Shown piece by piece: positions 5,553 to 62,581 of a stretch of DNA of 64,000 nt. The DNA comes from an uncultured Desulfatiglans sp. (GTDB lineage: Bacteria; Desulfobacterota; DSM-4660; Desulfatiglandales; Desulfatiglandaceae). Where the stretch lies: NCBI GenBank assembly GCA_900498135.1, contig LR026961.1, positions 2,053,325 through 2,117,324 of the forward strand, written 5' to 3'. The notes below the pieces were generated by a model. That model was not told where the DNA came from. It was given only the letters and a program-made list of their open reading frames with translations, and ran no database searches. The translations under genes and the position numbers were made by a program. Positions within the stretch are counted from its first letter, which is position 1. Each line of letters begins with the position of its first letter.

Positions 5553-7310
5553 ATGAGTTCGAATAAAAATTATCGGTACATCTTTATAAGCACTTGCTTG
5601 CTGATTTTTCTTGTTCAGTACTATCTTTTCAAATCATATGTTTTAAGAGAAGTGTCTTGGGCGTATCCAACTTGGGCAGATCAAGCACAATACTTGGCAT
5701 CAGCATATAGAGTATATAATACAATGCTTAATTCCTCTTTTTTGGACGCGCTAATATCGGAGTTTTTACGACCTAAACCAAATGGTAGCCTAATTGAAAT
5801 TGAAGGGGCAGTTTCATTTGTTCTTGGAGGTCCAACACGGTTAAGTGCCCTGAGTATCAATTTTATTCATCTCATATTTATGCAATTTGTAACAATAATT
5901 ACATTTTATAAATTAACAAAATCGCCGCTTATATCATTAATTTGTATTGGAATTCTTATGAGCATAAGCGCGATATATATAATGCCTGGTGCTATGTATG
6001 ATTATAGAATTGATTTTATGTCTTTTTGTTTATATGCAACCTTAATTTTAATTTTTCTTCATACAGACTTTCTATCAAGCCGAAAATGGTCGATTATTTG
6101 GGGAGCTTTTTGTGCTTTGTGTATCGTAACCCGTCATAATACGGTTGTATATATTATTGGTATTTGGATTGCCCTTTCCTTTTATGTTGGATTTAATTTT
6201 TTTAGTAGTTTTGACACTAGAAAGATTTATAAAAAGAAAGCTTTGTGTTTGATTTTTTCTGTAATAGCATGCTTTGTGCTCCTGTTTCCATTTGCTTTAG
6301 TTAGCTACAAATCATTCTGGCTCTACTATATCCATCAAGCACAAGTACGAGGACCGATAAGATTGCAAGGAGAGCCAATATTTAATTTTATTGATTTTCT
6401 ATTATATTATCCAAAGCAAGTACTGTGCGAAAAAATGGGAATGACTTCGGTGTTGTTGCTTATAGGGATTATGTTGCTATGCGTAATAGCTGTTTCTATT
6501 TCAAAGAAACGTCAGTTTAGTAAAAAAAATGTAGTTGAGCGCATTCAATATAACAATTTTAAAAATAACATTTTTTTTATCGGAGTGACAATTTTTGTAC
6601 CTCTCGTAGTATTAACAGTTAATCCGGCTAAGTCGAGCGTGGTGGGCGGTATTTTAGCTTTTCCCGTAGCAATTATGATTTTTTATATTTTATCTCATGT
6701 GTATTGTTATTATCTAGCAGTATGGCCAGGATATTTGTATCGTATAATATTCGTATTTGTTGCTTGTTTTACAATTGCAGTGGGGACTATTTATAGTTTT
6801 GCTAATTCATGTAAAAAGTCACCGCAATCTATATATAAAAGTGATACAAATTCTTTAATGGATTATTACCAAACATTTTATAAGCTATGCGTTAATTTGA
6901 ATTTGTATAACCCTACAGTTATTTGTGATTATCTTGTGGATCGGCTTGAACCTGTAATCCTTACTGTGACAGCGTATGAAAATTTGCAAATTTATATTCA
7001 TCCGCGGCAGATAGCTAGGACTGAGCAGATTCTTGCCGTTAATAAGGATGCCTTATTATCGGCTGCCGAGAAGACGGATTTTCTTGTTCTGACTGAATCA
7101 GATCACAAGGGGAAATTATATTATCCTTATAATAAATTAATGCATGAGGTTCAGCATGAACTTTTTGCAATTTCAAAAGAGCATCACATGCAAGTTGGTT
7201 GCTGGACAAGTTATGGCGAAAAGGTTAAGTTGTTTGTGAATAAAAAATATAGCCAAAAAATTTGCGAGAGAGGATTAGCAGGGGTTGCGTTGCGAAGTGA
7301 AAGGTTGTGA
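5553..7310 (+). CDS. Polytopic GT-C type glycosyltransferase-like membrane protein
   Basis: Integral membrane protein of 585 residues that starts with an N-terminal transmembrane helix and has about ten hydrophobic segments to residue 430, followed by a soluble C-terminal domain of about 150 residues. The first periplasmic loop carries WADQAQYL, which matches the acidic catalytic loop placement of GT-C enzymes (ArnT/PMT/RgtA-like). YDYRIDF and TRHNTVVY follow. Such enzymes transfer a sugar from a polyprenyl-phosphate donor on the outer face of the inner membrane. Codon use is strongly AT-rich (many ATA, TTA, AAA codons), quite unlike all neighbours except the flanking gaps, which points to recent acquisition. 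The ATG follows GGCAGGAAAAAA. The GT-C assignment rests on topology and loop motifs, so it is moderately certain; a different polytopic function is possible. Confidence 0.65.
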   Translation: MSSNKNYRYIFISTCLLIFLVQYYLFKSYVLREVSWAYPTWADQAQYLASAYRVYNTMLNSSFLDALISEFLRPKPNGSLIEIEGAVSFVLGGPTRLSALSINFIHLIFMQFVTIITFYKLTKSPLISLICIGILMSISAIYIMPGAMYDYRIDFMSFCLYATLILIFLHTDFLSSRKWSIIWGAFCALCIVTRHNTVVYIIGIWIALSFYVGFNFFSSFDTRKIYKKKALCLIFSVIACFVLLFPFALVSYKSFWLYYIHQAQVRGPIRLQGEPIFNFIDFLLYYPKQVLCEKMGMTSVLLLIGIMLLCVIAVSISKKRQFSKKNVVERIQYNNFKNNIFFIGVTIFVPLVVLTVNPAKSSVVGGILAFPVAIMIFYILSHVYCYYLAVWPGYLYRIIFVFVACFTIAVGTIYSFANSCKKSPQSIYKSDTNSLMDYYQTFYKLCVNLNLYNPTVICDYLVDRLEPVILTVTAYENLQIYIHPRQIARTEQILAVNKDALLSAAEKTDFLVLTESDHKGKLYYPYNKLMHEVQHELFAISKEHHMQVGCWTSYGEKVKLFVNKKYSQKICERGLAGVALRSERL

Positions 7311-10620: not shown

Positions 10621-11709
10621 ATGATGAAAACAGCGATGATCACAGGGATTACCGGACAGGATGGGATGTACCTGGCGGAGTTTCTGCTGCAGAAGGGATA
10701 TACGGTCCATGGATTGAAAAGACGTTCGTCTTCTTTCAATACGCGCAGGATAGACCATCTTTACCGTGACCTGCATGAGGAGGGGGTCCGTTTTTTTATG
10801 CATCACGGAGATCTGACGGATGCGACGAACCTCATCCGCATCATCCAGGAGGTTCAGCCCGACGAGATATACAACCTCGCGGCCCAGAGCCATGTGCAGG
10901 TTTCATTCGAGACCCCCGAGTATACGGCCAACGGGGACGCGCTCGGGACGCTGAGGCTGCTGGAGGCTATCCGAATCCTTGATCTCGGTGAGAAAACGCG
11001 CTTCTATCAGGCTTCCACCAGCGAGTTGTATGGCAAGGTGCAGGAGACTCCTCAAAGTGAAAAGACGCCTTTCTATCCCCGCAGCCCTTATGCCGTGGCG
11101 AAGCTTTACGCGTACTGGATTACCGTAAACTACAGGGAGGCCTATGGCATGTTCGCCTGTAACGGCATCCTGTTCAATCATGAGTCTCCTGTGAGGGGCG
11201 AAACCTTCGTGACGCGGAAGATCACCCGTGCGGTGGCGAGGATCAAGCTCGGGCTCCAGGAGCAGTTTTACCTGGGCAATCTCGATGCCCGGAGGGATTG
11301 GGGCTACGCGGGCGACTACGTCCGGGCCATGTGGCTGATCCTGCAGCAGGAAAAACCGGATGACTATGTGATCGCGACGGGTGAAAACCACTCGGTGAGG
11401 GAGTTCGTCGAGTGCGCCTTCCGAGAGGTCGGGATGGATCTGGTGTGGGAAGGAAGCGGTATAGACGAGGTCGGGATCGAAAAGGCGACCGGCAAGGTCA
11501 GGGTGATGATCGATGTCCGCTATTTCAGACCTACCGAAGTCGATACGCTGCTCGGCAATGCGGCCAAGGCGCGCGAAGAACTGGGGTGGGTGCCCAGGAT
11601 GCCCTTTGACGAACTTGTGAAGGTCATGGTGCGAGAGGATCTCAAGGAGGCTCAGAGAGATCAACTGTGCGGAAGCGCTGGATTTCGAACCTACAATCGT
11701 TTCGAATAA
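10621..11709 (+). CDS. gmd: GDP-mannose 4,6-dehydratase
   Basis: Canonical GMD of 362 residues. It shows TGITGQDG (8-15), the NADP-phosphate and tetramer segment [19 protein letters not shown] (about 133-139), the catalytic YxxxK at Tyr157/Lys161, NHESP, FVTRKIT, and [14 protein letters not shown]. It converts GDP-D-mannose to GDP-4-keto-6-deoxy-D-mannose in the cytoplasm, the branch point for GDP-rhamnose, GDP-fucose, GDP-perosamine and related sugars. Two ATGs overlap at the start (10621 and 10624); AGGTGG ends 8 to 11 bases upstream. No reductase, epimerase or aminotransferase that would name the final sugar follows directly, although the GMD-like paralogue at 2238 could be one partner. 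Confidence 0.95.
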
Positions 11710-11728
11710 GACGTCTCCATCAGGACAT

Positions 11729-11841
11729 AGCCTTTTTCCAATCCCGACATCAATCTGCGTGTTTCCCTGTGTGGCGACCCGGAGGTCGCCACACAGGCGC
11801 CTGATTTCCTCTATACCGGCTGAAAATCATTCTGGGTGGAA
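11729..11841 (+). repeat. Degenerate copy of the palindromic intergenic repeat (copy A)
   Basis: The stretch from TTTTTCCAATC through ATCAATCTGCG, the perfect hairpin GTGGCGACC/GGTCGCCAC (11771-11793) and CTGATTTCCTCTATACCGGC follows, in order and spacing, the repeat copies at 50151 and 53222. Sequence identity is lower than among the right-hand copies. It fills most of the gap between gmd and the next glycosyltransferase gene; an 85-codon open frame across it is therefore rejected as a gene. Confidence 0.65.
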
Positions 11842-12048
11842 TGGGGGCCTCGTCGTTCCGGAGATTACAGGCCTTTCCCGGAAGCTTGGAGTGGAAGAAG
11901 TTCATGCTTTAGAGAGCAGGCTTGCCGCATCATGGCATGGTTCCCCAATGGCGGTTTTGCGGCTGCGGATTGATCTTGTTGGTTTTATGTGTGAGAAATT
12001 TTGCCGCGAGCGTTGACTGAACCAGAAGAAGCGGATGCTTAATGAGAT

Positions 12049-36672: not shown

Positions 36673-36850
36673 GTTCCGTCCTCCTTTCTCTCCCAAGGCA
36701 CGGCGGCACTCTCATCGGGCCGCGTGCAGTCCAATAAAGAACGTTTTCACAAGCAAGCGGGCAGGCAAACTTCTCCCCTTCCCCTTGTTCCCTGATATCC
36801 ATCCGGAGATGATTTTCCGGTACAACGCAGTTTCCAAACCGGAAGTGAGG

Positions 36851-36951
36851 ATGTTTTCTTCACACCCTTCGGGTGCTCAGTCCCACCGCTTTGCGGCGGG
36901 TTCCGGTTTCTTCACGCCCTTCGGATGCTCAGTCCCACTCCTGCGAACCGG
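36851..36951 (-). repeat. Hairpin module (type II), two tandem copies in reverse
   Basis: TTCACACCCTTCGGGTG, then CTCAGTCCCACCGC and GCGGCGGG form two short hairpins. A second, shorter copy (TTCACGCCCTTCGGATG, CTCAGTCCCAC) follows at 36911-36938. The same module in the other orientation is found at 50411, 53337 and 62363. It lies between the thiolase-fold gene and a type I repeat. Confidence 0.7.
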
Positions 36952-36988
36952 ATCGTCGCCATCCGGAAAAAACTCCCCTGTAGAACCC

Positions 36989-37125
36989 GGCTTCCAATCC
37001 GGGAATGAGGAGTTTGGGCCAATATCAAAGCGATCTGGCGTTTGCGCGGTGGCGAGTTGTGCGTTGCCACACAAACAGACGTGCGGATTGAGGCCGAGAC
37101 GGGCCGAAAAAACCATTTCCAGGTG
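36989..37125 (+). repeat. Palindromic intergenic repeat, copy B
   Basis: Starts GGCTTCCAATCCGGGAATGA, passes through GGGCCAATATCAA, CGTTTGCGCGGTGGCGA, GTTGCCACACAAACAGACG, CGGATTGAGGCCGAGACGG and ends AACCATTTCCAGG. This follows copy C (47555) segment by segment at lower identity. It abuts the stop codon of the XRE-cupin gene (37128) and could serve as its 3' end structure. Confidence 0.75.
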
Positions 37126-37127
37126 CA

Positions 37128-47186: not shown

Positions 47187-47554
47187 GCGCTGACGGGGAA
47201 AATGCCGGTTCAGCCGACCTCCGCGTCCAACCGGGCGGTTGTTTCTGGGGCGACTGGAACGTAAACTGCCTGAACGTAAAAGCCTGACTTCCCCGACATC
47301 GGCCGGAGCGGCATCCATGGGGCAGCTTTGCGACCGAGTAAGTGGCGAAGCCGCTGCAAGCAATCCTCATTTCCGAATAGGAAACGGGTTTTGCTCGATG
47401 AAATCTTTCGGGATGCGCGCTATGCCGCGGAATTGGTCCGCCCTTTCGATTTGAAAACAAGCCGATTTCCAAAAGGCAGGCTCAGAACCTACTGGGTTTT
47501 CATCCATGGACGTTACTCAGTTTCCATCCGGAAATGATTTCCACGGAGAACCCG

Positions 47555-47695
47555 GTTTCCAATCCGGAAATGAGGATGTTTGTCCAATATCAAGGAAATC
47601 AAGCGCTTGCGCGGAGGCGACCTGCTGGTCGCCGCACAAGCAAACGTGCAGATTGACGCCGAGATTGGCCAAAAAGACCATTTCCGGATGGAAAC
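47555..47695 (+). repeat. Palindromic intergenic repeat, copy C (best preserved)
   Basis: 141 bases that begin GTTTCCAATCCGGAAATGA and end CATTTCCGGATGGAAAC, nearly exact inverted ends. Inside, TGTCCAATATC faces GAGATTGGCCA, and GCTTGCGCGGAGGCGACC faces GGTCGCCGCACAAGC around the CTGCTG centre. The whole unit is thus one long imperfect palindrome. A further short end copy (TTTCCATCCGGAAATGATTT) lies at 47521-47540. It separates nth from the first gene of the second glycan island. The rest of the gap from 47187 shows no gene. Confidence 0.85.
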
Positions 47696-50150: not shown

Positions 50151-50292
50151 GTTTCCAATCCGGAAATGGTCTTTTTGGCCAATCTCGGCGTCAATCTGCA
50201 CGTTTGCTTGTGCGGCGACCTGCAGGTCGCCTCCGCGCAAACGCTTGATTTCCTTGATATTGGCCAAAAATCCTCATTTCCGGATTGGAAAC
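50151..50292 (-). repeat. Palindromic intergenic repeat, copy D
   Basis: 142 bases, the same unit as copy C in opposite orientation: GTTTCCAATCCGGAAATGG, TTTTTGGCCAATCTCGGCG, ATCTGCACGTTTGC, the perfect inner palindrome GGCGACCTGCAGGTCGCC (50213-50230), AACGCTTGATTTCC, GATATTGGCCAAAAATC and CATTTCCGGATTGGAAAC. End and centre symmetry is almost complete. Confidence 0.85.
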
Positions 50293-50305
50293 TGGATTCT
50301 ACCGG

Positions 50306-50489
50306 GAAATGGTCTTTTTGGCCAATTTCGGCGTCAATCTGCTCCCGTGCTTGGGTGGCGCATGATCCATACGCTTTCGCGCGATCCCTTGAGATTCTCG
50401 ATTTTAGCTGAACTTGGACCCGCTGCGAAGCGGTGGGACAGAGCACGTGCAGCTTGTGAAGAAAAATCCTCACTTCTGGCCTTGAAACT
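50306..50489 (-). repeat. Second, composite repeat copy next to copy D
   Basis: Opens like copy D (GAAATGGTCTTTTTGGCCAA, CGGCGTCAATCTGC), loses the central palindrome, and then carries a type II hairpin module from 50411 (ACCCGCTGCGAAGCGGTGGG, GAGCACGTGCAGCTTGTG). It ends in GAAAAATCCTCA and a worn end GGCCTTGAAAC. Copy E shows the same type I/type II fusion. The remaining bases to 50551 hold nothing I can name. Confidence 0.7.
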
Positions 50490-50551
50490 GTTTCGTCTTC
50501 GAAAACTTCATTTTCGAATGGGCCCTACATATCACAGGCATGCAGTCTATG

Positions 50552-53162: not shown

Positions 53163-53221
53163 CCTGAAAATTTCCGTTGGGCCTGCGTTGGTGTATACAG
53201 AATGAAGTCAGACACAAGTCA

Positions 53222-53415
53222 ATTTCCGTCCGAAAAAGGTCTTTTTGCCAAATCTCTGCGTCCATCTGTGCGTTTGCTTGTGCGGCCGACTTACCGGTGG
53301 CCTCGGCGCAAAAAATGGATTTTCTTGATATTGGCTAAACCGGGACCCGCCGCGAAGCGGTGGGGCTGAGCACCCGAAGGGTGTGAAGAAAAATCCTCAT
53401 TCTCAGATTGGAAAC
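53222..53415 (-). repeat. Composite palindromic repeat, copy E
   Basis: Opens ATTTCCGTCCGAAAAAGGTC and follows copy D through TGCGTTTGCTTGTGCGG and TTCTTGATATTGGC. Then it carries the type II module (53337-53392) with two perfect small hairpins, CCGC-CGAA-GCGG and CACCC-GAA-GGGTG. It ends in AAAAATCCTCATTCTCAGATT and GGAAAC. A worn end copy is present at 53425-53457. The gap 53163-53739 (577 bases) contains no convincing gene and becomes AT-rich after 53600. Confidence 0.8.
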
Positions 53416-53739
53416 TGAGACCTACCGCGAAATCATTTCCGGATGGATACAAGTTATATCCCGACAGGGCAGCGACAAATGCATTCCACGCGGCCTTTCC
53501 GGGTTGGCAAATCTTGTTTGTCCATTTGCAAAGAATTACCTGTCAAAACGAGGCTTCCAGTGCAGAAAGGCAGATCATTCCCGCTGGAAACTCAGTAGAG
53601 TAACGTTTCGTGTAGACTGTAAAATCAATCAATATGAAATGACTCGTTTGAATGATATTTCATTTTATGAATCTAAAATTCAACAACGCAAAATTTAATA
53701 TAAAGACTATATTGAATAGGTGGATATACATAGTCAATA

Positions 53740-62362: not shown

Positions 62363-62416
62363 ACCGGAATACGGCGTGAAGCGGTGGGCTGACCGGTGAA
62401 GCCGGTGAAGAAAAAG
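62363..62416 (-). repeat. Hairpin module (type II), copy F
   Basis: GAACCGGAATACGGCGTGAAG, then CGGTGGGCTGACCGGTGAAG and CCGGTGAAGAAAAAGCCCTC. It has the layout of the module in copy E, but the second hairpin is ACCGG-TGAAG-CCGGT in place of CACCC-GAA-GGGTG: both arms changed together. It lies just upstream of tmk. Confidence 0.65.
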
Positions 62417-62581
62417 CCCTCTTGATGATGAGAGGGAGTATAGGTCAAAAGGACACCGGCAGGCAAGGGGCAAAAGCAAGGCCTGGGAGGGCGGCCTTCG
62501 CTTGGCCGGCGCTAAAAGTGGGCATCCCGGTCGGTTTTGTAAGAGAAAGAGCCCGGGTTTACCTTCAAGGCATTTTCTCTA

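Follow-up and report, generated by a model that had tools for sequence, protein, structure and literature searches.

Introduction

Miniature inverted-repeat elements (MITEs) are commonly regarded as passive remnants that are held only by their ends. Two described groups from Geobacter resemble the family reported here. In Geobacter metallireducens, the Gmet_R1005 group was presented in 2009 as predicted short RNA elements in 24 copies, with the central palindrome GRCGTAGCGCTGCTACGCC and one site between dapAB and dapL; sulfurreducens, G. uraniireducens and Desulfotalea are named alongside them (PMC2700814). The Chunjie MITE of Geobacter uraniireducens (Chen et al. 2008, as cited in PMC10969869) is described as intergenic, with full copies of 178-235 bp and with terminal and direct repeats. 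Another group, MRSC-65-2, is outlined as a single long covarying stem with a UYCCGG repeat that reaches dozens of copies in a genome, can lie close to a transposase, and has over 20,000 representatives (PMC11109978).

We analysed a stretch of 64,000 nt (the window) from an uncultured Desulfatiglans sp. (genome G000, 4.8 Mb), in which the earlier note had pointed out a family of intergenic imperfect palindromes and read it as either a MITE or a structured regulatory RNA. One locus of this family (L245) has the exact reverse complement of the Gmet_R1005 palindrome, GGCGTAGCAGCGCTACGCC, at the same hairpin position, and a complete Geobacter-like genome (G337) carries an element at the published site, between dapB and dapL. 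These two matches, one in sequence and one in site, place the window family and the Gmet_R1005 group in the same superfamily. The passages on that group in PMC2700814 treat its members as RNAs and leave terminal repeats, duplications and mobility unmentioned, whereas the elements of the window are mobile and have IS-type ends. The Chunjie MITE agrees with our elements in size (176-178 bp here, and 229 bp for a long form), in its terminal and direct repeats and in its intergenic position, a likeness of descriptions that serves as a lead. Geotalea toluenoxydans, a close relative, carries the element (locus L123). The predicted RNA elements of G. metallireducens are thus an already published part of the family, and the Chunjie MITE is probably another.

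Other systems also resemble the family. The UYCCGG repeat of MRSC-65-2 compares with UUCCGG in the outer stem here, again by description only, and CCGG is not invariant in the window family. ERIC and Correia/NEMIS are likewise intergenic imperfect palindromes of 100-200 bp in many copies, often in transcribed regions; by their general descriptions they differ from the window family in sequences, ends and hosts. Copies that abut a stop codon have a layout (gene, stop, antisense hairpin) similar to that of integron attC sites, but no attC GTTRRRY/RYYYAAC boxes were seen by eye.

Results

A covariance model was built from 51 sequences of other genomes, one of them from the congener G001 and none from the window. 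With this model, whose E-values are rough, all six places in the window, that is, the five copies of the earlier note and a composite neighbour, were matched, and they form a real homologous family. One copy has its conserved core hairpin of 141 nt at 47555-47695 (+ strand, 143.4 bits), backed by covariation. The full-length element is longer, covering 176 bp at 47520-47695 (+; profile match over model positions 2-177), since the core is preceded by a left-end module of 35 nt at 47520-47554 (+), which is found in nearly all full copies. The unit size of about 140 bp given earlier had left this module out and must be corrected to 176-178 bp. The layout of the full unit is GTTTCCATCCGGAAATGATTTCC...GGTAGAACCC and GTTTCCAATCCGG...core...CATTTCCGGATGGAAAC, in which 35-36 nt stand before the core and begin with the same terminal repeat. 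The ends are GTTTCCATCCGGAAA, and GTTTCCATCCGGAAATG is present at both termini as inverted terminal repeats. In other genera, the left-end module is a small hairpin, for example GTGTCCATCCGGAAACTCCGGATGGACAC.

A second intact core hairpin lies at 50151-50292 (-, 149.9 bits), and over 158 nt the complementarity of 47537-47694 to 50153-50310 is 93%. Next to it, the composite neighbour at 50298-50523 (-) was resolved by profile matches and alignment into a worn core (50298-50437, 23.4 bits), a left end (50460-50523) and, at about 50411-50465, an additional hairpin module. In long forms, the left end is separated from the core by one or two such modules, each about 50 nt in length. The one at 53222-53450 (-) is 229 bp long, with profile matches at 53222-53339 and 53389-53450 and a core match at 53243-53339 (45.9 bits); a direct repeat ACAAGT adjoins it at 53214-53219, with its partner at 53449-53454. 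The other, at 36796-37126 (+; alignment and profile matches), combines a left-end fragment (36796-36856), two hairpin modules (36855-36886 and 36907-36938) and an element (36957-37126) whose core occupies 36990-37126 (62.5 bits). The module itself (CACCCTTCGGGTG...CCACCGCTTCGCGGCGGG) was seen as an insertion at 36855-36938 (two in tandem), 50411-50465 and 53337-53392. Further remains are a worn copy at 11713-11848 (-, 41.3 bits, E=2.9e-7) and worn fragments at 47195-47415 (-; profile matches 47199-47304 and 47358-47415).

The family is abundant outside the window. About 370 elements are expected in the whole genome by extrapolation from 31 in an unbiased 400-kb sample. The covariance model gave at least 150 matches with E<=6e-15, all 150 scored candidates being matched, and blastn of the whole genome yielded 449 candidates, the best 40 of which are 93-97% identical. 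At several loci, the elements form composites, either tandem or nested. Tandem arrays of cores were noticed on contig C1 of the genome (803136-803530, 3015755-3016180 and 3536541-3536965), and some cores elsewhere are fused through a common GGAAATCAAG; runs of N beside these arrays and fusions suggest assembly trouble. A 28-codon reading frame picked out by eye was dropped, as one-base indels break it in several genera.

We then searched for the core among relatives. The covariance model found it in 85/395 genomes and 58/246 genera of Desulfobacterota, and full-length cores in other genera are 75-82% identical. An exact-pattern search located it in named records of Desulfobacterales, Desulfuromonadales, Geobacter/Geotalea and Desulfonatronospira; this search demanded two conserved blocks, so that the conservation of those blocks is partly imposed, and 11 sequences found by blastn without such selection retain both blocks with few exceptions. 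Rfam gave no match above gathering score, apart from a tRNA, for the window and six related loci.

Comparison of the 51 sequences demonstrated strong covariation, with two-sided (compensatory) change in 26 of the 45 stem pairs. Paired cells amounted to 96.6%, against 85.6% in shuffled and about 38-47% in slid alignments, and 0/500 shuffles scored as high. The invariant or nearly invariant positions form an internal loop, AAGGA/GACGC, beside AATC/GATT. Tandem G-A pairs are possible in this loop; a K-turn reading was abandoned because the geometry does not fit (extra CGC). Folding of the element against shuffled sequence gave z = -6.9 with RNA and -5.3 with DNA parameters, and both strands lie far beyond the shuffles.

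The two strands are not equivalent, however. The earlier view that the strands fold alike, with orientation hardly mattering, is refuted by the copy at 50151-50292, for which the model gives 150 bits in one orientation but 46 in the opposite one, and by the better folding of the + strand. On that strand, G-U pairs outnumber A-C mismatches by 131:17, and by 39:14 in a strand-neutral set of 34 pairs that are also predicted from the complement. The consensus energy is -52.3 kcal/mol for the + strand against -14.7 for the complement, and the + strand is the more stable in 156/157 sequences (51/51, 60/61 and 45/45 in three sub-families) with a gap of about 10 kcal/mol. In the Desulfatiglans genome itself, the gap is small, the + strand being more stable in 35/43 copies. 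Since orientation was set mainly by sequence motifs (150 vs 46 bits), the asymmetry is not simply an artefact of picking the better-folding strand. The sign is unchanged with DNA energy parameters, and folding therefore does not separate RNA from single-stranded DNA. Conservation of a 140-nt hairpin body on one strand across a phylum suggests that the fold itself may do something. As side observations on this body, in the copy pairs L332/L308 and L338/L309, common to genomes G122 and G337, the apical hairpin differs as a whole block (GTAGCAGCGCTAC vs GTACTGGAAGTAC), which looks like an exchange of apices inside one genome, and the same larger apical-loop insert (GCGCTGTTTATGCCCGATGTTTGGGTAC) is present in the hairpins at L307 12762-12923 and L323 7958-8119.

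Evidence for mobility came from flanks and from empty sites. Exact direct repeats of 6-8 bp, typically 6-7 bp and often of the form TAnnTA, flank many full copies, those in the Desulfatiglans genome including TATTCTA, TATCTT, TAGCCA, TAATTG, CAGATA and TGATTA. The same type of duplication occurs in other genera and classes, and many copies have imperfect duplications. Three sites are filled in G001 and empty in the Desulfatiglans genome, one of them in the window: L370 against window positions 62414-62424 (flank alignment with overlapping target), L379 against L045 (about 5713-5719) and L382 against L234 (about 6311-6324). Other sites are common to both congeners. Therefore, we can conclude that the element has moved since two species of one genus split.

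A partner IS was located through pairs of terminal repeats 1-3 kb apart. At G000:2892412-2894105, an intact ORF of 455 aa is bounded by the ends GTTTCCATCCGGAAA and a TAAATA duplication, and its product is an ISNCY-family transposase (NCBIfam NF033593, E=1.7e-131; Pfam DDE_Tnp_1). The genome has three copies of this IS, at 1.50, 2.16 and 2.89 Mb; an internal stop interrupts one copy, and a clean duplication flanks just one. The earlier statement that the window has no transposase thus holds for this IS, for which alone it was checked. By blastn, the likeness between MITE and IS is confined to the ends, at 17/17 and 15/15 nt (GTTTCCATCCGGAAATG and CATTTCCGGATGGAAAC). A relative in another genus (G016) encodes a protein that is 66% identical and has the ends GTGTCCATC and a TAATTA duplication; the MITEs of other genera, G016 included, start with GTGCCCATCC. 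Such a protein is encoded in only 7/61 relatives, and none like it was found in G001, which has 148 scored element matches, so mobilisation in trans is something that we only infer. Plasmid, phage and viral-contig carriers were searched and gave no match.

Matches in other families are weaker; the inner motif is kept (TCAAGGA.../TGACGC, TTTTTC/GGAAAAG) and the outer stems differ. In G251 (2.75 Mb; 79 hairpins), the elements have ends of the GGCAACC type, GGCAACCTCTAAAAAT, and 4-bp duplications; a duplication of at least 4 bp flanks 16/38 elements, compared with about 1 in shifted controls. No IS with GGCAACC ends was found in 400 kb of this genome. Its hairpins favour the lagging strand by 65:8 after collapsing, a polarity stronger than their gene-relative orientation (16:8 in tandem regions). 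Replication-coupled insertion, suggested by this figure and by polarity in G134, was rejected, as the Desulfatiglans genome has no polarity (65:71), although in G251 it may still play a part. Nor did an orientation bias hold up in the latter, falling from an initial 67:19 to 40:24 (p=0.06) after collapsing per intergenic region and use of model matches, and no significant bias was seen in 37 named loci. Among the named MITEs, the stop of an ORF, by crude ORFs, falls at the boundary of 26/55 elements, 18 antisense and 8 sense.

Discussion

The family is short and non-coding, has many near-identical copies, inverted ends, target duplications and empty sites, and shares its ends with an IS. We consider, with a probability of roughly 0.75, that it is a MITE, most likely moved in trans by the ISNCY-family transposase, and that the element needs its folded + strand. 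Of the two readings offered by the earlier note, the MITE is borne out by terminal repeats, target-site duplications, filled and empty sites and the partner IS, whereas for the regulatory RNA the evidence consists of covariation and strand asymmetry. In the mechanism that we favour, the transposase would bind the common ends and move the MITE, and earlier bursts in other lineages may have used other or since-lost transposases. The body is a conserved hairpin of 140 nt and not filler derived from an IS; its folded + strand, as RNA or single-stranded DNA, would be needed by the element, probably as a protein-binding site. A TAnnTA target joined to the terminal G would recreate a TAG stop, so that insertion at gene ends would be tolerated, and copies with the + strand in an mRNA would be weeded out, leaving old copies antisense and against stop codons.

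The main competing explanation is that the element is chiefly a host cis-regulatory or mRNA-processing hairpin, which lies after stop codons in operons and sets mRNA stability or processing, mobility being a mere means of spread. Its case comes from G337, where gene names were read by eye from protein sequences; the gene calls of this analysis came from a home-made hexamer caller. Most copies in this genome lack IS-type ends and are placed between co-directional genes, and 27/30 start -15 to +1 nt from the upstream stop codon, antisense, with one in sense orientation. Elements are antisense to genes in 24/26 cases between leading-strand genes and in 2/2 between lagging-strand genes, a pattern better explained by the orientation of flanking genes than by replication. 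Five elements lie in the arg cluster (argB-argDF-argG-argH), one at dapB/dapL (dapAB-dapL), one after groEL and several among hyp genes, and several of these sites are occupied at orthologous positions in G122. Four copies common to G122 and G337 are 97, 93, 95 and 87% identical, where the full alignments reach 87, 88, 91 and 85%; two additional sites align poorly. That old intercistronic copies are slightly better conserved than their surroundings hints at a host role. The label of predicted short RNA elements (PMC2700814) points the same way. However, such mRNAs would contain the strand of lower stability, which has A-C at positions of G-U in its complement, and in the Desulfatiglans genome orientation in tandem regions is unbiased (15:17), few copies stand at stop codons, and sites differ between congeners. 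We therefore regard a primarily host-serving hairpin as possible but doubtful.

A repeat of the REP/REPIN type, moved through single-stranded DNA by a Y1 (RAYT) transposase, would account for long hairpins with a strand-specific fold in many intergenic copies and for the lagging-strand polarity of G251, and six Y1_Tnp matches are present in the Desulfatiglans genome. Yet none of the six Y1 loci is flanked by element ends, only a single weak hairpin was found close to any of them, replication polarity is absent from this genome, and REPs are not known to have 6-bp target duplications. This origin is largely refuted and is very improbable. Chance resemblance among low-complexity palindromes that share no ancestor is refuted, since further copies abound in the genome with 93-97% identity over 140 nt, E-values reach 1e-32, and full-length matches occur in other families. 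The trans-mobilised MITE with a needed fold remains the reading that we prefer.

When a DDE transposase moves a MITE, the interior of the element should be dispensable, and the strong conservation of that interior is unexplained by the MITE model alone. Here the interior, not the ends, is conserved across the phylum, even across different ends, which raises the testable question of why a parasite with a borrowed transposase retains a strand-specific fold. The family also joins two published, unconnected Geobacter observations in one superfamily, namely the short RNAs predicted there and, probably, the Chunjie MITE, and the covariance model can be used to annotate hundreds of unexplained intergenic repeats. 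More speculatively, and with odds that we place well below even, the core hairpin may be an ancient transferable device carried across Desulfobacterota by two or more unrelated transposon chassis, one having GTTTCC ends and 6-bp duplications and another GGCAACC ends and 4-bp duplications. It would act as a one-strand folded RNA or single-stranded DNA, and in genomes of the Geobacter type it would have come to rest against stop codons, between co-directional genes.

Apart from this family, the window contains paralogous stretches at 2637-2968 and 11050-11381 (repeat families D5 and D9), 8.4 kb apart in a glycan cluster; the gene of the second stretch (10621-11706) encodes a GDP-mannose 4,6-dehydratase by Pfam.
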